A stretch of DNA of 23,585 nt, taken from positions 1 to 23,585 of the IMG/VR virus record IMGVR_UViG_3300022673_000005. One strand, written 5' to 3'. Positions 4,256-17,409 of the stretch are shown here, piece after piece; within the stretch, counting starts at the first letter, position 1; every line of letters begins with the position of its first letter. The notes under the pieces were generated by a model. The model had not been told where the DNA came from. It saw nothing but the letters and a program-made list of their open reading frames with translations, and made no database searches. The stretch comes from a virus. A program made the position numbers and the translations under genes.

Positions 4256-5965
4256 TTACCTTCCTAAACTACATAAAGCAACGGCATTGTAAGCTTTGCT
4301 ATATGTCTCTGTTGACTTCTCAATATCAGCTAATTCTTTCAAGTCATCCGCAATCGATTTCTCATCTAATCCATATTCATCCATTACTTGTTTTGCGATT
4401 TCTTCTTCATCTGCTGCTGATTTTCGCATTTCCACCAGATCATCGCCTACACCTTTTAAACGCTGGCTCAACTCAATGGATAATGCTTCGCGGCCATCTT
4501 GCACAGGTTTGTTTTGAACGCGAGACAATTCATCTGAGTTTTTAGGTGGGCTATAAATATCTTCGACATTAATTTCTTTGCCGTTGCTTGATTGGGCTAA
4601 CGCTGTTTTTAGTGCTTTAACTTGCGTTCCAAAGTCTGCGTTATTAACACGCTGAGAAGCTGATAACCTAATCTGTGATGATAGCGGTTTTTCTTGAAAG
4701 CCTTTTAACTTATCTCGCATTCTAAGCTTAACGCGCTCTTGCATCGTATCAGGAACAATACCTTTCTCTAGTAAGGCTTTATCTTGTCGCCGCATTTCTT
4801 GTGAACGATTTAATTCTATACGACTTTGGTTTTCAGCTTTTAACTTGTTAAGTTGCTCGCGCTCTTTTGCTATTGCCTGTCTTGCTAATTGCTCAGATTT
4901 TTTGCGTGAGTTACCTTCTGCCTGAAATTCCCTGGCGACTGTTTGAAAATGCTCTTTGGTATCCAATACCTCTAAACGTCGATCAGCTAAACGGTTTTCT
5001 TTTTTAATCTCACGAACAGGAAAACGTTCGCCATTTGCTTCAATGTCATCAGCTAGCCTAGCTATCTCTTCATCGATAAAATCACGTTGAGCACGTTCAC
5101 GAATAGCGAACTCATTTTCTTGTAACTGCCTGCGCATAGTGGCTGCAATATCAGGCTGTTCATCAATAAATCCCGGTGAAGTTATTTCTTGTTGCGCTGG
5201 TGCTTCTGGGGCTTCTGGTGTTAATGATTTTTCCACCTCATCAACTAACCGCTGTTTACGGATATCGCCAATTAACCCGCCAACACTATGCATGCCACCA
5301 CCAAGCACACCACCAAACACGACATTCAATAAACTGTCTGTCATATCGTAATCTGCTTGGTCGTAATCTGACGCTGTTAGTATTAAGGGTTCTAATGCGG
5401 CTGCACCAACAGCACCCTCTAGAGCGCCAACACTTGCACGTACACCAACACGACCAATCATAGATGACGCACCAGCAACTAGCGCGGTATACCTGGCCTC
5501 ACCAACAATAGGAATAAAACCAGACGCAAGGTTTAAAGGATCTAATGCAGAAGCCGCTAAACCAGAACCTAAAACAAAAGGTATCGCTGATTTCGGTGCC
5601 GACTGAAGAATAAGATTGCGCTCTTTCTCTTCGCGCTTACGGCCAATAATGATGTTTAGCGTTTCTTCACGCATACCTTGTTCTGGCACATCAATATCTA
5701 AACCTGACTCATTAACGCGGTTATCAGCTTCTTGTTTCGTTAGTTGTGGTGATTGTGGTTCGCGACGATAAGATGGCAATCCTTTTTGCCCAAAAACAAA
5801 CTCACCTTGTTCTGATTCATCAATTGTTCTGATTCGATTTAATGCGCTAGTGGGGTTTTCAAACAATGCTTGCTCAAACGCAGCACCCATCGCAGAAGGT
5901 ATCGATGAATCAATATCTAACGGGCTTACTTGGCGGCCTTTAACTACATCGGTAAATAGTGTCAT
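4256..5965 (-). CDS. Internal virion protein, probable N-terminal counterpart of a split gp16-like ejection protein
   Basis: A 569-aa protein. Residues 125-235 hold long Ala/Gly/Leu/Val-rich hydrophobic stretches (SAIPFVLGSGLAASALDPLN, then LVAGASSMIG and LLNVVFGGVLGGG) that could insert in a membrane. Residues 240-560 are strongly charged (Glu/Lys/Arg/Gln) and likely coiled coil. This layout suits an ejected core protein. The start ATG overlaps the stop of the upstream gene by one base (TAATG), a translational-coupling junction. The protein ends in AYNAVALCSLGR, and the next gene begins almost at once, with a fresh Shine-Dalgarno sequence inside this gene's last codons. T7 gp16 carries an N-terminal lytic transglycosylase domain; I see no such domain here. 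Function rests mainly on position and composition. Confidence 0.72.
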   Translation of the reverse strand: MTLFTDVVKGRQVSPLDIDSSIPSAMGAAFEQALFENPTSALNRIRTIDESEQGEFVFGQKGLPSYRREPQSPQLTKQEADNRVNESGLDIDVPEQGMREETLNIIIGRKREEKERNLILQSAPKSAIPFVLGSGLAASALDPLNLASGFIPIVGEARYTALVAGASSMIGRVGVRASVGALEGAVGAAALEPLILTASDYDQADYDMTDSLLNVVFGGVLGGGMHSVGGLIGDIRKQRLVDEVEKSLTPEAPEAPAQQEITSPGFIDEQPDIAATMRRQLQENEFAIRERAQRDFIDEEIARLADDIEANGERFPVREIKKENRLADRRLEVLDTKEHFQTVAREFQAEGNSRKKSEQLARQAIAKEREQLNKLKAENQSRIELNRSQEMRRQDKALLEKGIVPDTMQERVKLRMRDKLKGFQEKPLSSQIRLSASQRVNNADFGTQVKALKTALAQSSNGKEINVEDIYSPPKNSDELSRVQNKPVQDGREALSIELSQRLKGVGDDLVEMRKSAADEEEIAKQVMDEYGLDEKSIADDLKELADIEKSTETYSKAYNAVALCSLGR

Positions 5966-11037: not shown

Positions 11038-11655
11038 TTACCACCCCGGTGTTGATCGATCGAAACTGCTGTTTCTTACGTCGGACCAACTACCATCAGG
11101 GAATTGTTCAGGATAATCCTCAAGTGCGCCATAGCTCCGCGCTTGTCGAATCGTATCTTTGTAATCCCTTCGCATGTCATCAGACAATGAGCGGGATTCT
11201 GCAATCGACACAGCCAACGTTACAGCAAGCTTATAAGCTAACGCCATTCTGAAAGTAGGGTCAAAATTCTGCACGCTGGTAATGTTTGCAACGTAAGTTA
11301 TCCACACCTCATCACTTGAGCACCAAATAACTTTTGTATCGTCTTCATCGTAACCAAGCTTATACCGCACACTGCCTAGACCAGCATCGTTGTCATAAAC
11401 CGCAATCAAACGCACATAATCATTAGGTAAGGGGTACTGGTAATCAAACTCGAAGACGGGGGTATTGCTGCTACGGGCGAGCTTTTTCCGTTTGGTGGCA
11501 AATTTCCAGTGATACGCTCGCAACAACGCATCACGATAATGCTCATAAAGCTGGGAAACTTTATTGGCATTTTTAGTGCCATCCGTGAAAGCAGTAATAG
11601 TGCTTGCACCAATAGACTGTAATGCGATGTTAGCTATATCGGTTTGGCTCGCCAT
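11038..11655 (-). CDS. Tail tubular protein A, T7 gp11-like adaptor/gatekeeper
   Basis: A 205-aa protein (T7 gp11 is 196 aa) that would form the dodecameric ring between portal and nozzle. The N-terminus TDIANIALQSIGASTITAFTD followed by YRDALLRAYHWKFATKRKKL (residues 36-60) is the usual opening of the family: helix, then a Trp-containing helix leading to a basic stretch. The middle has FDYQYPLPNDYVRLIAVYD (about 70-88), another family hallmark. The C-terminal half is a long helix with a short basic tail. An AGGA lies 10 bases before the ATG. It precedes the gp12-like gene by 6 bases, the same order as T7 genes 11-12. Confidence 0.9.
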   Translation of the reverse strand: MASQTDIANIALQSIGASTITAFTDGTKNANKVSQLYEHYRDALLRAYHWKFATKRKKLARSSNTPVFEFDYQYPLPNDYVRLIAVYDNDAGLGSVRYKLGYDEDDTKVIWCSSDEVWITYVANITSVQNFDPTFRMALAYKLAVTLAVSIAESRSLSDDMRRDYKDTIRQARSYGALEDYPEQFPDGSWSDVRNSSFDRSTPGW

Positions 11656-11670
11656 AACAGTTAAATCCTA

Positions 11671-12105
11671 TTAAGCAGTATCTTTTTTGGCTTCTTCTTC
11701 AAAATAAGCAAGCGCTTCTTCGGCTGCTTTCTTGTTCGGGAATTTATCAATAAGACCCTCGCCCTCGTACAACTCCCAACAGTTTTTACCTTGAACAATG
11801 CGCATTTCTTTGTTGATTTGTTTGATTTGAACAGGTTCGCGCATCATCCAAAAAGTTAAAGGATCAGCCTTGTTGATTAAGACTTCGGCCATTGCTAACA
11901 CTTCGCCGTCTCTAACCTGAACAATTCGCATTGTGTCGCCTGTGCGAAAAGGCTTATAGGTTTTGAAATACTCTGGATCGAGCATCACTTCCATGGGGTG
12001 TTCGTGGTGATATGTCCACATCTGACCGAAATTAACTGAATCACTCATGATAAGATTTTGCGGGATCACTTTAAGTGGGCGAGCGGTTGAAAGTTTAGCC
12101 GACAT
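11671..12105 (-). CDS. Conserved-looking phage protein of unknown function upstream of the tail adaptor gene
   Basis: A 144-aa soluble protein. The N-terminal half has the pattern RPLKVIPQNLIMSD, then WTYHHEHPMEVMLDPEYF (about residues 30-47) and FRTGDTMRIVQVRDGE, suggestive of a small beta-barrel fold. The C-terminal third contains NCWELYEGEGLIDKFPNKKAAEEALAYFEEEAKKD, in which an acidic amphipathic helix is clear. I associate this type of protein with podophage genomes near the capsid and tail-adaptor genes but cannot name a function. AAGG lies 8 bases before the ATG at 12105. It is the first gene after the 97-base gap that follows the cargo cassette and is separated from the gp11-like gene by 15 bases. 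Confidence 0.75.
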   Translation of the reverse strand: MSAKLSTARPLKVIPQNLIMSDSVNFGQMWTYHHEHPMEVMLDPEYFKTYKPFRTGDTMRIVQVRDGEVLAMAEVLINKADPLTFWMMREPVQIKQINKEMRIVQGKNCWELYEGEGLIDKFPNKKAAEEALAYFEEEAKKDTA

Positions 12106-12202
12106 AGGTTGTACCTTGGTTTGTTAGTCTACGTTTTGATCATATCAATACTACCATACTGTAGAAGCATAGTATGATACGAAGGGTATACAAATTGCAC
12201 TG
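12106..12202 (-). promoter_or_regulatory. Intergenic region with two AT-rich hairpins between the cargo cassette and tail genes
   Basis: The transcribed strand folds into a 9-bp stem (52-60 with 71-79 in the 12100s, that is 12152-12160 with 12171-12179) with a 10-base loop and one G-U wobble; the opposite strand would have an A-C mismatch there. Downstream, 12136-12148 is a second inverted repeat, TTGAT-CAT-ATCAA. No U tract follows either hairpin, so a simple intrinsic terminator is unlikely. A processing site, operator or new promoter region are alternatives. No convincing -35/-10 pair was found (the best, TTGTAT and TATGCT 16 bases apart on the minus strand, is weak). Confidence 0.35.
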
Positions 12203-12838
12203 TTAATCACTATTTTTGATAAAAGCAAAGCTTACTATATCATCGCGTCCTGCTTCGGTTTCACAGGCATTGCACTCGACCATAGAAAATTTATGCCGCA
12301 ACATCCAAGACACGAAGCCACCACGCTCAAAATAGTACAAATGCTCACCAGGTTTGTAATGTTTCCAGGTTAATACATCGTTAATATTTTGAATGATTGG
12401 TATTGATGTGAACAAATAATCACCTGGCTTTATGCGCTGAAAATAACTAATTGGTTCCGGTACGTGCTCGATCACATCCCAAAACGTGAATGCGCGGAAA
12501 TCACCAAAACACTCACTGTATAACTTGTTGCTTTTTAACCAGTTAACGGCGTGCTCGTTCACATCGTAGCCATAAGTACCCGGTCTAGTTTTAATAAATT
12601 CCCCGTTACCAATACCGACGTCTAAAACTGAGCCGGTATGATATTTATCCACAAAAAACCTTCTTGCTTTATTAATTTCTTCGGCGACTTGAGAACCTGA
12701 ATAACCTTCATACTTAAGAAAGTAATCACGATCATAGGACGCGGTAATCTTCATGTCTCGCTGATAAGCGACGCCCACGTAAGGCATGATCAGCAAATCG
12801 GCTTTTGTGTATCCGTACCGCTTTATGATTTCATCCAT
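12203..12838 (-). CDS. Class I SAM-dependent methyltransferase
   Basis: A 211-aa protein with a Rossmann methyltransferase core. Motif I is VLDVGIGNGEF at residues 71-81 (SAM-binding loop). The acidic end of strand 2 appears as GYDVN at 90-94. Residues 119-129 read FWDVIEHVPEP, the post-strand-4 motif typical of methyltransferases of the UbiE/Methyltransf_23 type. HLYYF at 166-170 is also common in sugar and small-molecule methyltransferases of that type. It overlaps the GT29-like gene by 16 bases and has GGAG 8 bases before its ATG. As the last gene of a cassette of glycosyltransferase-like genes, an O-methyl cap on a glycan is a reasonable inference; a DNA or protein substrate is not excluded. 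No DNA-methyltransferase catalytic motif (DPPY/NPPF) is visible. Confidence 0.85.
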   Translation of the reverse strand: MDEIIKRYGYTKADLLIMPYVGVAYQRDMKITASYDRDYFLKYEGYSGSQVAEEINKARRFFVDKYHTGSVLDVGIGNGEFIKTRPGTYGYDVNEHAVNWLKSNKLYSECFGDFRAFTFWDVIEHVPEPISYFQRIKPGDYLFTSIPIIQNINDVLTWKHYKPGEHLYYFERGGFVSWMLRHKFSMVECNACETEAGRDDIVSFAFIKNSD

Positions 12839-13512
12839 GTCGTTTGCTCCATAATATGGTTAAGTTTATCGTCAACGCTGATTGGATGTTGGAACCTATG
12901 ATACTTCAACCAATTTAACTCAGCTTCAGGGTCATGGCCGATAGGATCGGACGGATCAATACCGCGCCAAGCTTCATCAACGTTGTGAATGCGTGACTGA
13001 AAAAAATCAAACCCCGTAATATAAATATGCTCAGGTTCGGTTTTTACTATATCTAAGATAGCGGCGAACCCTGTTGTTGGTACGCGCTTATTGAGTAGAT
13101 GAAATTTCTCGTTAAAGTGAGTTAGATCGGGAACAAAAGTTGGGCAAAACCAAAAATCTTTACGGTGATAATAAATATACCGGTAATCAATGCCAAACAA
13201 CTTCATGCGCTTAGCATGCCAATGTGAGCTTTTTAATATCTTGGCATCAGGACATTTGCAAACACAAAGACCTACACCGTCACTTTGCAATTGTTCTTTT
13301 GTTTTGGCGATTGACTTACCATAAAAAGAATAATGAACATCTGTTCTATAGCCTGTAGGCTCGCTTAACTTATAGTTGTTAACGCGAACAACAACGTCAA
13401 AACTATCAATGAATCCTGGCTCGTTATCTAATACACCTGGACCGCTACCAACAATAGCTACTCGCTTATTGTGAAACCTCTGCTTCAAAAGCAACCAGTC
13501 GTTGAAAATCAT
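12823..13512 (-). CDS. GT29 (sialyltransferase)-like glycosyltransferase
   Basis: A 229-aa protein. Residues 16-59 resemble the sialyltransferase large motif: basic residues, then VAIVGSGPGVLDNEPGFID, then FDVVVRVNNYKL and GYRTDVHY. Residues 144-171 resemble the small motif: VPTTGFAAILDIVK followed by EHIYITGFDFF. A later HDPEAELNWL (193-202) supplies a His/Glu pair as seen in bacterial relatives. GT29 enzymes transfer sialic acid from CMP-sugar; distant bacterial and phage members may use other sugars, so donor and acceptor are unknown. The ATG at 13512 overlaps the GT9-like gene by 47 bases and has only a weak Shine-Dalgarno. It is shorter than eukaryotic family members and has no signal or membrane segment, so it probably acts in the cytoplasm. 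Confidence 0.68.
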   Translation of the reverse strand: MIFNDWLLLKQRFHNKRVAIVGSGPGVLDNEPGFIDSFDVVVRVNNYKLSEPTGYRTDVHYSFYGKSIAKTKEQLQSDGVGLCVCKCPDAKILKSSHWHAKRMKLFGIDYRYIYYHRKDFWFCPTFVPDLTHFNEKFHLLNKRVPTTGFAAILDIVKTEPEHIYITGFDFFQSRIHNVDEAWRGIDPSDPIGHDPEAELNWLKYHRFQHPISVDDKLNHIMEQTTWMKS

Positions 13513-14263
13513 CTATTACTCGCTTGACCGCATCCGGTCTCCAATCATCATAAACATAAAACTCTTTACCGGTATTTTGCAGCATTTTTCGAGGTATCAA
13601 TTGCCGCACAAATTTATGCTTATCTCTTGCGGCTGCGCGAGAAAAAACATATAAAGCTGGCTTATTAAAGGATTCTGATAAGGGCATAAAAAAAGAAGGA
13701 TAACCAATAAACCCGTCTACTTGCGAGGCAATATCAATAAGCTCGGCAATACTGGTTTTGTTGGCTAAGTTAATATCAATATTTTTAAATTTGAATAAAG
13801 GCTCACCTGCGCCTAGCTGAATATAACAGGCTTTTATTTTATTGATAATGTATTGGATTACGCTGCAATCGGGCAGAATGGTGTTTCCGTATCCGTCTGT
13901 TCTTCCCATGGGGTTTCGAGGCAACAACACGGCAATCGTAGGTTTCCTTGGCCGTTTAGCAAGTAGTGAAGAGGGCTTCCAATCAAGGCGTAATTCCGTA
14001 TCTTGCGGTATACCTGCTGTAATGCAGCAATCTTGGAATTGTGTTGTTTCTTCTGATTTGCGCGTAGTGTACACAGCCAAAATATCAATATTCTCTCGCG
14101 AAAACGGGACGACATTAACATCGAGTTGGCTAAAAATATCTGGATAATTAGAGCATACATTAAGAATATCATCCCTCTCTTTAAGTAGGTATCTAACAAC
14201 ACCCTGCAAATAAAGACTGTCTCCTAATCCGCTACCACAACGAATCCTTTTAACTAGGCTCAC
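13466..14263 (-). CDS. GT9 (heptosyltransferase)-like glycosyltransferase
   Basis: A 265-aa protein with a GT-B layout. The N-terminal GSGLGDSLYLQGVVRYL (residues 10-26) matches the Gly-rich first loop of the GT9/ADP-heptose:LPS heptosyltransferase family (G-x-G-D). The C-terminal half has YIQLGAGEPLFKF (about 147-159), then TSIAELIDIASQVDGFIGYP and SFFMPLSESFNKPALYVFS, the nucleotide-sugar-binding half seen in that family. It is shorter than typical heptosyltransferases (about 320-350 aa). I choose the GTG at 14263 because AAGGAG (14272-14277) is 8 bases away; the TTG one codon earlier would leave only 5. It overlaps the upstream gene by 14 bases. Transfer of a sugar to a surface or virion glycan is inferred; the exact substrates cannot be read from the sequence. 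Confidence 0.7.
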   Translation of the reverse strand: MSLVKRIRCGSGLGDSLYLQGVVRYLLKERDDILNVCSNYPDIFSQLDVNVVPFSRENIDILAVYTTRKSEETTQFQDCCITAGIPQDTELRLDWKPSSLLAKRPRKPTIAVLLPRNPMGRTDGYGNTILPDCSVIQYIINKIKACYIQLGAGEPLFKFKNIDINLANKTSIAELIDIASQVDGFIGYPSFFMPLSESFNKPALYVFSRAAARDKHKFVRQLIPRKMLQNTGKEFYVYDDWRPDAVKRVIDDFQRLVAFEAEVSQ

Positions 14264-14846
14264 CAAACACGCTCCTTGTCCACCCTGACATTGATTTCAC
14301 GTTATCATGAAAATCCACATCGGCTAATAATTCCTTGCGATAATGGTCAATTACTTCTGTTTTAACCATAGCTCGCGAGGGTTGATTACCATTATAACAC
14401 CCAGGGTCTAACGGCATCCCACATAGCACCACCAAATCAAACCCCATATAAGAAGCCACGCGCCTAGCACCCCAACCGCTTGTTGCTCCACCTGCGCCGT
14501 ATTTCCACCAATAATCAACGAAAGGCTTGTATTCGCGAAGTTTTCCGAATGCCGTCTTATCTTTCGCGGTGCCGGCTGAATGGCAGGTAAATTCATCATG
14601 AAAGCGCTGCTGTGCGCGTATCCATTTTGGAAATTTAGCGGGGTGTTGTGTGAATAGTGCAAAAGCTTGAGTGTAGTTTGCTGCACCGTTTACGGCGATT
14701 ACAGGGGCATCAGGGAATAACCGTCTTGCTCGTTGGTAATCATCATGTAAGCAAAAAGCATTACCTAAAACTAAAACGGTGCCTGAATGTTTGAAAGGAT
14801 ACCGAGGTAATGATTCTGGACCGCTTTTCTTTTTCTGTTTATCCAT
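14250..14846 (-). CDS. DUF115/MptE-like Rossmann protein, first gene of the glycan cassette
   Basis: A 198-aa protein. Motifs in order: VLVLGNAFCLHDD (24-36), VIAVNGAANYT (49-59), then TSGWGARRVASYMGFDLVVLCGMPLD in two parts (122-135 and 136-147). This order (nucleotide-binding start, V-x-A-V-N-G, [ST]-G-W/L-x-A ... A/C-G-x-P) fits the DUF115/6-hydroxymethylpterin-pyrophosphokinase-MptE-like fold, often found beside glycosyltransferases in surface-sugar loci. A frame extending upstream to a TTG at 14888 would start inside a terminator stem, so I use the ATG at 14846 (MDKQKKK). That ATG has no clear Shine-Dalgarno and lies 15 bases after the terminator U tract, so expression may be low or conditional. 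The exact reaction is unknown. Confidence 0.65.
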   Translation of the reverse strand: MDKQKKKSGPESLPRYPFKHSGTVLVLGNAFCLHDDYQRARRLFPDAPVIAVNGAANYTQAFALFTQHPAKFPKWIRAQQRFHDEFTCHSAGTAKDKTAFGKLREYKPFVDYWWKYGAGGATSGWGARRVASYMGFDLVVLCGMPLDPGCYNGNQPSRAMVKTEVIDHYRKELLADVDFHDNVKSMSGWTRSVFGEPS

Positions 14847-14861
14847 GAAATGTAAGTGTAC

Positions 14862-14902
14862 AAAAAAATACCCCGACTGCGTAAACAATCAGGGTATTTT
14901 TT
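14862..14902 (-). terminator. Strong intrinsic terminator after the capsid unit
   Basis: On the transcribed (minus) strand 17 consecutive pairs form from 14902-14886 with 14879-14863, including six A-U at the base, ACCC/GGGT in the middle and two G-U wobbles, closed by a 6-base loop. A run of seven U follows (14868-14862). The plus strand would have A-C mismatches at both wobble positions, though it too ends in a T run, so weak bidirectional action is possible. It sits 26 bases after the stop of the 123-aa gene and just before the cargo cassette. Confidence 0.88.
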
Positions 14903-14928: not shown

Positions 14929-15300
14929 TTAGTCACCATACGCTAGGGTTGTACCACCATGCAATTCGTTACTTAAGTTGATCGCTGTACCATCATTTTC
15001 CATGACGATGCATTGACCGTAATCACTTAAGCCGGTGGCTTTATCTTCTGAGATATCGCGAGAATCATCAAGCGAACCTACAACAAAGATGTTGATAATA
15101 TCGCCAATTCGAAGCATATCGAGGGCAATTTCTCCGTCATCAGTGCTGTTATCGATGTAACCGGAACCATCTACTGTAGCTATGGCATCCGTGGTGACGT
15201 ATTCGTAAATACGGCTACCTGGAGGCGCAGCATCAGCGACACATTGCAGATACATCTTGCTTTTGTACTGGTTAGAAGTACCGCGTAGTTGAAAAGACAT
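14929..15300 (-). CDS. Probable capsid decoration or head-associated protein
   Basis: A 123-aa, mainly beta protein with small residues: YEYVTTDAIATVDGSGYID (about 33-51), then LDMLRIGDIINIFVVGSLDD (around 60-80), ending in a Gly/Thr-rich tail. The pattern (V/T)-TTDAIATV ... GY-x-D ... L-x-x-GD-I/V is one I associate with small phage head or fibre-associated proteins encoded just after the major capsid gene. It has a strong AAAGGAGA (15309-15316) 8 bases before its ATG and shares the transcript with the capsid gene, from which it is separated by 50 bases. The terminator right after it makes a two-gene capsid unit. Decoration function is inferred from position, size and pattern. Confidence 0.62.
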   Translation of the reverse strand: MSFQLRGTSNQYKSKMYLQCVADAAPPGSRIYEYVTTDAIATVDGSGYIDNSTDDGEIALDMLRIGDIINIFVVGSLDDSRDISEDKATGLSDYGQCIVMENDGTAINLSNELHGGTTLAYGD

Positions 15301-15350: not shown

Positions 15351-16250
15351 TTATTCGGTATCTGCGGTTGCGATTGCTGTTGTGTCGTTTAGGTTCGACT
15401 CAATCACGCCTGTGGTATCAATCAAACACGCGCCACCACTCATAACGTGGTTAACAAAATGTGAGTGACGATCACCATGCCAAGTAATATCAGCAGATAC
15501 GCCTTGATTACCTGCAATGTTACCAGCGTGCTTCAATGTTGCATATCCCATTGAATTCTTGTGATAAGCGAACATTTTAGCCGTAGCCGTACCTTTGCCT
15601 GGACAACCAGTGTGAACCTTCCAAAGAACGCCGTTCCAGTTACGCCAGCGACCACCAACAGGAGCGCCCTCAGTGAACGGCATACCAGTAACCGATACAT
15701 AGTCAGAGCTTGAAAACTCTTTAAATGTACAAGCTTGTGAATGACCGCGGGGGGTTAATACAGCATAACGCTGGCCATCGTTAGGCACGTCGTTATCGTC
15801 TAGCGCTTCACAAATTTGTGTGAGCGTGTTTCGGATAGCCGCCGCACTCGTCACGGTCCACGAAATAGTGCTTTCAGAAGTGCCGTCTGCTGCTGTTAGG
15901 ATTTGATCGTCAACTTTACGACCTAACGCCCATGCGCCACCCTTAGCAACTGCCATGCGCTCATCGTGGTTGACTTTGGCCTCATCTAACTTGTCGACCC
16001 AATCACCCGCAAAGAAATCATCCAAAGGACATTCGATAGCGGTATGGTCTTGGTTCATTGGCGTGATAACACCGTGACGGGCTTTAGTTGTCGCCGTGCC
16101 GGTGCCGATTTTTTGGAAAGTTGTGGAATAACCTACAACATTGTCTTTAGTTCGTACTGAATTACGAAGAAATCCACCTTGGCGTTGGAAAACGTGGTGT
16201 ACATCTCGCTCGTAATCACGAACAAAGGATTGATCAATAGTGGTACTCAT
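15351..16250 (-). CDS. Major capsid protein
   Basis: A 299-aa protein, shell subunit of the head (T7 gp10A is 345 aa). The N-terminal part has VFQRQGGFLRNSVRTKD (20-36), then an ATTKARHGVITPMNQDHTA stretch and DDFFAGDWVDKLDEAKVNHD followed by RMAVAKGGAWALGRKVDDQI (about 77-117). This is the order of the Phage_capsid_2 type (Pfam PF19821, from memory): FQRQG-S, IG-x-x-x-A, N-x-x-H, D-x-VDKLDE, ALGR-x-x-D. AAGGTG lies 7 bases before the ATG. It follows the scaffold gene directly, as in most podophages, but after a 166-base gap containing a structured RNA. Two likely reasons for that gap are a stable leader for high expression or an mRNA processing site. Confidence 0.9.
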   Translation of the reverse strand: MSTTIDQSFVRDYERDVHHVFQRQGGFLRNSVRTKDNVVGYSTTFQKIGTGTATTKARHGVITPMNQDHTAIECPLDDFFAGDWVDKLDEAKVNHDERMAVAKGGAWALGRKVDDQILTAADGTSESTISWTVTSAAAIRNTLTQICEALDDNDVPNDGQRYAVLTPRGHSQACTFKEFSSSDYVSVTGMPFTEGAPVGGRWRNWNGVLWKVHTGCPGKGTATAKMFAYHKNSMGYATLKHAGNIAGNQGVSADITWHGDRHSHFVNHVMSGGACLIDTTGVIESNLNDTTAIATADTE

Positions 16251-16416: not shown

Positions 16417-17409
16417 TTAACTATCGCCGTAATACTGCTTTGATTTTCTGGCACGCTCATCGAATAATCTATTCGCTTTTGCGTTATTGCCAGCATTCAA
16501 CGCGGCTTGAGCTTCCTCGGTTAACCGTTCTTGCTCTGCTTCGAATGACTCTTGATCTGCTTGAGTCATGATCGTTTGCAATCCACCCTCACCCATTTTG
16601 CGACCAATGTCGGAAAACACTTTGATGAAAGCTGGATGATTAACAAGCTCTACACCTTCATATGTAGCATTTGTGAGCGCACTTGTAAACTCTTCGTTCG
16701 CAAATTGTTTAAAACCGCGCTGTGCGTAGTTGTTGTTTTTCTCGAATTCATCGCCCCATTCATTTTTGAGTGCGGTATCAGCTTTGGCTATATTTTCCTC
16801 AAACTGAGCAGAATCCGCCTTGTGACCTTCCACTATGCGGTTTAATGTATAATCAATGATCGATTTTGCTTGCTCTGGTGTGGATCCAGTTTCATGCAGC
16901 ATGGTTTTCATGTCGCCGATTATTGGTTGCAATTCATCCACGTTGACGGTTTCCGGCCAATCCGATGTATCAGGCATTTGGTAGCTGTAACCTTCTGCTG
17001 AATCAGGGACACCAAGCGCTTTACGGTAAGCCGCTTTCTCTTCATCAGTAGCATTTTTACCAATCTTAGGGATAACATTTGATAGTTTCTGTCTGAATTC
17101 AAATGCTGTTTTGAGTGCGTCCTGTGGTGTGTTGAATTGCTCAGAAAACTTTTTAAGGTTTCCATCGGTAATTTCATCGCGCCATGATGCAGAGGTGGTT
17201 ACTTGACCTTGGCCCTCACCTTCACCTTCACCTTGGCCTTCTCCGGCACCGCCCTGGCCTTGGCCTTGGCCTTCGCCTGTACCACCTTCACCCTGGCCGC
17301 CTTGGCCTTCACCTTCTCCGGTTCCCGCGCCGCCTTCGCCGCCCTGGCCTTCGCCGCCTGCTTGTTCCCAATATCCACGTGCTAACAATTGTTGAAGTAA
17401 TCGATTCAT
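16417..17409 (-). CDS. Capsid scaffolding protein with Gly/Glu/Gln tract
   Basis: A 330-aa acidic protein (T7 gp9 is 307 aa) that would guide capsid assembly and leave the head. Residues 18-69 consist only of Gly, Glu, Gln, Ala and Thr. The rest is helical and polar: KKFSEQFNTPQDALKTAFEF, then a segment with GVPDSAEGYSYQMPDTSDWP (about 129-148), and a C-terminal coiled coil from about 285, rich in Glu/Gln/Ala, with a short basic end. The D/E-rich helical body plus 'GVPDSAEGY' type segment is usual for scaffolds of this group. Position between portal and capsid supports it. AAGGA lies 10 bases before the ATG. Confidence 0.85.
   Translation of the reverse strand: MNRLLQQLLARGYWEQAGGEGQGGEGGAGTGEGEGQGGQGEGGTGEGQGQGQGGAGEGQGEGEGEGQGQVTTSASWRDEITDGNLKKFSEQFNTPQDALKTAFEFRQKLSNVIPKIGKNATDEEKAAYRKALGVPDSAEGYSYQMPDTSDWPETVNVDELQPIIGDMKTMLHETGSTPEQAKSIIDYTLNRIVEGHKADSAQFEENIAKADTALKNEWGDEFEKNNNYAQRGFKQFANEEFTSALTNATYEGVELVNHPAFIKVFSDIGRKMGEGGLQTIMTQADQESFEAEQERLTEEAQAALNAGNNAKANRLFDERARKSKQYYGDS
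17203..17358 (-). repeat. Low-complexity coding repeat (Gly-Glu-Gly-Gln) in the scaffold gene
   Basis: 156 bases of GGN-GAA/CAA-type codons encoding 52 residues drawn only from Gly, Glu, Gln, Ala and Thr. The repeat unit is irregular (GEGQ, GQGEG, GGAG), with varied third bases, so it looks old or selected at the protein level rather than recent slippage. Confidence 0.85.

Follow-up and report, generated by a model that had tools for sequence, protein, structure and literature searches.

Phage particles are usually regarded as bare protein. Freeman (2023, in Cell Host Microbe) reportedly demonstrated by experiment that mycobacteriophage virions are glycosylated. Phage-encoded virion glycosylation exists in these phages (PMC11652166), and it was the only precedent in the literature we searched, which left preprints and most subscription papers outside. 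Among enzymes that glycosylate proteins in the cytosol are Maf, which can use N-acetylneuraminic acid (Neu5Ac) or 3-deoxy-D-manno-oct-2-ulosonic acid (Kdo) (PMC7591256), and TibC (PMC4358343). Here we describe a cassette of four genes, A to D, in a 23.6 kb virus record from IMG/VR (IMGVR_UViG_3300022673_000005); the window is the whole stretch of 23,585 nucleotides that was analyzed. The cassette sits in a slot between capsid and tail genes. This slot is an exchangeable site with conserved flanks, in which modules are swapped between related phages. The function of the cassette is very likely glycan-related, and its target is probably the virion itself.

Results

The window is a partial genome. 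Its minus strand encodes the structural module of a T7-like podovirus, with genes for terminase subunits, portal, scaffold, major capsid protein (MCP), tail-tube, and internal virion proteins. The cassette consists of four overlapping minus-strand open reading frames transcribed in the order A, B, C, D. It is flanked by MCP and the small gene g123 on one side, and by g144 and the tail-tube gene TTA on the other. An earlier annotation of this DNA (the original prediction) had placed four genes between capsid and tail genes with overlaps of 14 (A/B), 47 (B/C), and 16 bases (C/D), and we could confirm these coordinates. Since all four have conserved relatives, A–D are genuine genes and not chance reading frames.

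Gene A: 14250..14846, minus strand; 198 residues; predicted GT42 sialyltransferase/Maf-type fold, probable glycosyltransferase
Gene B: 13466..14263, minus strand; 265 residues; very likely a glycosyltransferase with GT9 heptosyltransferase fold
Gene C: 12823..13512, minus strand; 229 residues; very likely a GT29 (sialyltransferase family) glycosyltransferase
Gene D: 12203..12838, minus strand; 211 residues; class I S-adenosylmethionine (SAM) methyltransferase
MCP: 15351..16250, minus strand; left anchor of the slot and possible acceptor; Pfam Phage_capsid_2 PF19821, 2e-53
g123: 14929..15300, minus strand; small gene after MCP, possibly a decoration protein and acceptor; PHROG 18004
g144: 11671..12105, minus strand; closes the slot, with a small counterpart in empty slots too
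TTA: 11038..11655, minus strand; tail-tube protein, right anchor of the slot; PHROG 394, 4e-54
Terminator: 14862..14902, minus strand; strong intrinsic terminator after the capsid genes (z −6.1), common to cassette-free relatives

Gene A matched no Pfam family at E values up to 1, including PF01973, the DUF115/MptE-like family to which the original prediction had assigned it. That assignment holds by fold only. The predicted structure of A (predicted local distance difference test score, pLDDT, 89) resembles the GT42 enzyme CstII (Z 12.6; 168 of 198 residues aligned, 3.0 Å) and Maf (5mu5, Z 10.9), and on the strength of this model A is likely to be a glycosyltransferase. The conserved residues N53, H68, Y151, and H180 are candidates for catalysis or for binding of cytidine monophosphate (CMP). 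A family of DUF115-like proteins, C0, is related to A (hhalign, 96%), matches PF01973 below the cut-off, and shows a weak profile link to gene C (71%); A and C have no detectable relation to each other by profile. Profile searches of PDB sequences found nothing relevant for A and a weak match to CstII (E 0.22) for C0. When we searched 50,697 phage records by tblastn, A returned a single match (28%), which in Paracoccus phage Pkon1 adjoins the capsid gene, and neither B nor C returned any.

Gene B falls below the Pfam GT9 cut-off (PF01075, 12.8 bits versus 22), and a profile search of PDB sequences with B gave no match. Its predicted structure (pLDDT 94) aligns along about 230 residues with WaaF (Z 16.9 over 234 residues), TibC (Z 16.6), and WaaC, all at Z 15–17, and the top-ranking matches are all GT9 enzymes. 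Residues G15 and D16 of the GxGD motif are invariant in 20 relatives. By this model, B is very likely a glycan enzyme of the heptosyltransferase fold. Gene B starts with GTG at 14263, 8 bases after AAGGAG; the ATG of gene A has no clear Shine–Dalgarno sequence.

Gene C passes the Pfam threshold for GT29 (PF00777, 24.9 bits versus 23), and one relative lies just under it (19.9). The sialyl motifs L, S, and VS are present in an alignment of 23 sequences, and both residues of the VS motif, H193-x4-E198, are invariant in all of them. A profile search of PDB sequences with C gave a weak match to ST3Gal (E 0.98). By these motifs and scores, C is very likely a glycan enzyme. Gene D matches Methyltransf_23 (PF13489, 3e-8, 34 bits versus a cut-off of 27) and PHROG 6564 (8e-52), with relatives in D3 (orf13), Psp6, and Eowyn. 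The labels "GT9-like" for B, "GT29-like" for C, and "SAM methyltransferase" for D are therefore upheld, B by its heptosyltransferase fold and invariant aspartate, C by its Pfam gathering score and conserved sialyl motifs, and D, of class I, by its Pfam gathering score. The structural search that had been suggested as a check on all products places the models of A and B among glycosyltransferase folds, with C and D placed by Pfam. Genes B, C, and D are slightly AT-richer (39–40% GC versus 43%), and IVP1 is close at 41%. We discarded foreign base composition as an uninformative sign of a cassette.

To see how the slot behaves in relatives, we collected 80 viral contigs with a close MCP relative (58–73% identical), 46 of which contain both MCP and TTA. 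The distance between these two genes is 0.66–1.57 kb in 32 of the 46 and 2.1–8.05 kb in the other 14; the TTA–TTB junction is near zero in nearly all loci. An empty slot comprises MCP, a g123-like gene, one small gene, and TTA, and g123 is kept after MCP in relatives. Filled slots carry different modules. One type (L055, L067) contains A, a transferase of a family we call c12, a radical SAM protein, the halves of a thiamin enzyme, a DegT aminotransferase, a PseB-like dehydratase, a nucleotidyltransferase, and an HddA-like heptose kinase. A second type (L047, L107, L103) combines A with methyltransferases and GT2. The third (L073, L105, L110) holds varying sets of c19, PseB-like, WbuX, WbuZ, cytidylyltransferase, acetyltransferase, and NeuB/PseI-like genes; taken together, these look like a nonulosonic-acid pathway. 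The nucleotide-sugar matches include PseB (4e-90), WbuX (above cut-off), WbuZ (6e-80), RfbH/PseC (1e-76), HddA (8e-43), and NeuB (8e-24). At least 87 of 149 slot proteins belong to glycan-related or sugar-modifying families; 30 were unassigned, four of which were placed by a later check.

The state of the slot, filled or empty, changed at least seven times on the MCP tree, and two of these changes are forced by well-supported branches; the tree is a quick one with several long branches, on which gain and loss are indistinguishable. Close sisters carry different modules or none (L086 versus L092, L067 versus L074). By terminase, the nearest isolates are H6/1 and Vibrio 1.182.O, and both lack a cassette in the capsid–tail interval. 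The original prediction had called the four genes a cargo module and proposed a comparison of phages with and without them. This comparison strongly supports that view: flanks are conserved and content is exchanged, most capsid relatives have an empty slot, and the others carry different glycan modules.

Several further features of these loci deserve mention. The c19 gene (about 280 residues; L110:6449-7297, L105:10729-11634, and others) directly follows g123 in nonulosonic-type slots, where A otherwise stands; no Pfam family matches it, and profile comparison relates it to none of A, C0, and C. The g123 product is longer in filled loci (median 123 versus 88 residues) and reaches about 205–220 residues in most c19-type loci. 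This length is possibly tied to the glycan, and kinship among the empty-slot phages confounds the comparison. Some slots contain GIY-YIG and HNH endonuclease genes (L101:10292-11404; L085, L088, L102, L105), which might drive the exchange of content by homing. Two contigs have NeuB/PseI-like and further sugar genes not in the slot but upstream of portal (L087:87-4191, L056:3311-4273).

Relatives of the cassette also stand behind other head modules. A search of viral contigs with B or C, in which capsid genes were not used, found 32 loci, mostly in siphophages with unrelated capsids, and three further prophage-like loci came from betaproteobacterial genome assemblies. The genes usually run in the order C0, B, C, one or two methyltransferases, D. 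Of the 35 loci, 28 have head genes upstream, 18 have neck or tail genes downstream, and 15 have both; contig ends truncate most of the remainder. A single distant match (27%, Omnitrophota) is outside a recognised phage context. For A, the scan of viral contigs found nothing with the single protein and succeeded with an alignment as query. It gave 16 loci, ten of which repeat contigs of the MCP scan, and in 15 of the 16 the MCP gene lies one small gene upstream.

Three cultured phages carry members of the same families. Phage D3 encodes C0 (orf7), a weak relative of B (orf12, 2e-4), and D (orf13) inside its head/neck block. Unlike the cassette, D3 has no GT29 relative, and three genes separate its C0 from the other two. 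The D3 genes for conversion of host lipopolysaccharide (LPS), namely iap, the O-antigen acetylase, and wzy-beta, are at 21.0–24.6 kb, away from orf7, orf12, and orf13. The annotated start of orf7 (L139:5813-6409) at 5951 looks late; the upstream frame contains the C0 motif ASGPSL and overlaps orf6.5. In phage P1 the corresponding system is PmgO-PmgP-Ppp-PmgQ (HdmB, HdmC, and HdmD in P7). PmgO belongs to the C0 family (5e-43), PmgP matches the profile of the gene A family (2e-8), and PmgQ belongs to the c12 transferase family found in slots (2e-33). The genes pmgO, pmgP, and pmgQ belong to a single gene group that follows a late promoter, and they are nonessential, dispensable for plaques, and of unexplained function (PMC10695390). 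We found no relatives of B, C, or D in the stretch of P1 that was tested. In the jumbo phage Eowyn, C0, a weak B relative, and D stand in a row. Matches to bacteriophage capsid or C0 proteins also came from records whose listed hosts are green algae, namely HQ332136/NC_023841 (Dunaliella viridis virus SI2) and records of Tetraselmis viruses; these are probably phages that infect bacteria associated with the algae.

The original prediction had also named a terminator and a hairpin-bearing gap as the two boundaries of the cassette. The hairpin at 14862-14902 is indeed strong (−25 kcal/mol, z −6.1), but it is no cassette boundary: among relatives, the g123-like gene is followed by a hairpin with a T-tract in 19 of 27 loci that lack a cassette and in 13 of 21 that carry one. 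Since its counterparts follow the corresponding gene in empty-slot relatives, this terminator ends the capsid transcription unit, and expression of the cassette from upstream would need read-through. The second boundary is not supported, as the hairpin in 12106-12202 does not exceed chance (z −1.5; 19 of 200 shuffles fold as well). Elsewhere in the window, a long tract of Gly/Glu/Gln repeats (GEGQGG...) lies in the N-terminal part of the scaffold-like protein (16417-17409), which is unusual in a scaffold.

Discussion

We consider it reasonably probable that the cassette directs cytosolic glycosylation and capping of a capsid or decoration protein. From the enzymes and their setting we infer the following activities, donors, order of steps, acceptor, and benefit. 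The cassette would be one variant of an exchangeable virion-glycosylation locus, which supplies soluble transferases from the structural operon. The first sugar would be placed on Ser/Thr of the capsid protein or the small decoration protein in the cytosol by A or B, the latter in a TibC-like manner. In favour of this, Maf and TibC, which rank among the nearest structural matches to A and B, act on proteins in the cytosol. B and C may then extend the glycan from host donors, probably adenosine diphosphate (ADP)-heptose for B and a CMP-activated ulosonic sugar such as CMP-Kdo for A and C, before D methylates the glycan to form a cap. The phage might benefit, for instance, from a shielded particle or a change in attachment. 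Because the enzyme set varies among relatives, some of which encode a nucleotide-sugar pathway of their own, particles would differ in surface glycan, as bacterial serotypes do.

Glycosyltransferase genes are linked to structural genes, and their position after the head genes is fixed even in unrelated head modules, for which reason we prefer the virion over the host surface. The precedent of mycobacteriophage virions points the same way. If instead LPS core or capsule were altered, superinfection could be blocked or progeny freed from receptor debris. GT9 and sialyl- or Kdo-type transferases are typical of LPS synthesis, and D3-type phages are known for seroconversion, D3 itself carrying LPS genes. 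These D3 genes, however, form a separate cluster, and the slots lack what such conversion uses. By simple hydropathy, A–D have no membrane segments and none of 149 slot proteins has two or more, whereas D3 Oac and Wzy have seven each. Integral membrane transferases, flippases, and polymerases of the gtr/oac/wzy type of serotype conversion were likewise not found in the slot. A late structural operon would also leave little time to change the surface. With the position tied to head genes in unrelated phages, we regard host-surface modification as quite unlikely. Another virion protein, such as the tail tube, an internal virion protein, or a tail fibre, is an unlikely target as well. The slot is equally close to the tail-tube gene, and PMC12619734 reports glycosylation of both capsid and tail-tube subunits in mycobacteriophages, but gene A lies one small gene after MCP in 15 of 16 loci.

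Two further explanations move the chemistry away from proteins. Proteins with glycosyltransferase-like folds could serve an unrelated soluble function, in small-molecule or nucleotide metabolism or in counter-defence. The fold of A is common to HPPK and SteA, and slots also carry radical SAM, thiamin-enzyme, and homing endonuclease genes. All four cassette genes nevertheless point to glycan chemistry, as do the glycan-related or modifying families that dominate the slots, which makes this explanation very unlikely. Decoration of hypermodified phage bases against restriction is the least probable of all. Virus-encoded DNA-hypermodifying glycosyltransferases are known (Pyle 2024, as cited in PMC12619734), and the window covers only part of the genome, so that genes for base modification could be located elsewhere. 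No base-modification gene is present in the window or was seen in the slots, however; the cassette lies between capsid and tail genes, and the nearest folds act on glycans or proteins.

Glycosylation of a capsid or decoration protein thus remains our preferred reading, and several points weigh against it. The glycan itself is deduced from genes. ADP-heptose and CMP-Kdo are LPS donors and would suit modification of the host surface equally well. The fold of A is also that of SteA (Z 12.4) and HPPK (Z 11.4), neither of which is a glycosyltransferase, so that transferase activity of A is likely but not certain. We found no Ser/Thr enrichment of capsid and g123 proteins in filled loci. The P1 pmg genes are not next to the capsid gene, and the text of the P1 virion proteome makes no mention of glycans (PMC9024508). 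The original prediction had also favoured the virion as target; head-gene position, soluble proteins, and the separate location of the D3 LPS genes make it the more likely one.

As a tentative generalization, many Gram-negative phages may possess a virion "serotype locus" beside their capsid genes, in which glycan modules are swapped, with P1 pmgO, pmgP, and pmgQ drawn from the same toolkit. If so, swapped modules, including nearly complete nonulosonic-acid pathways, would dress particles in differing bacterial-style sugars. More than the single cassette, what surprises is that the locus is exchangeable and connects to P1 and D3 genes that have had no explanation. Virion surfaces would diversify like bacterial serotypes, with a bearing on stability, adsorption, predation, and immune recognition, and many phage sugar-nucleotide "auxiliary metabolic genes" would shift from host metabolism to particle building. 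Since the well-studied phages P1 and D3 carry cassette relatives, the idea is open to experiment, and it suggests a function that can be tested for pmgO, pmgP, and pmgQ and for D3 orf7, orf12, and orf13.

Among described enzymes, the GT9 proteins TibC, WaaC, and WaaF share the fold and the GxGD motif of gene B, at 10–14% identity; TibC differs by an extra N-terminal part and forms dodecamers. WaaC and WaaF fit equally well, so that protein is only a possible acceptor for B. Flagellin glycosylation by Maf or FlmG resembles the present system in the fold of A, in the PseB, NeuB/PseI, and cytidylyltransferase genes of relatives' slots, and in its soluble cytosolic enzymes. Gene A differs in being a bare domain of 198 residues, compared with about 630 residues for Maf, and no flagellin is involved. 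A further parallel is with mycobacteriophages, where phage-encoded glycosyltransferases are likewise thought to act on capsid or tail proteins. There the glycan has reportedly been shown experimentally (Freeman 2023, as cited in PMC11652166 and PMC12619734), whereas here we infer it. What sets the present system apart is a swappable locus with GT42-, GT9-, and GT29-type enzymes, joined in relatives by nucleotide-sugar pathways.

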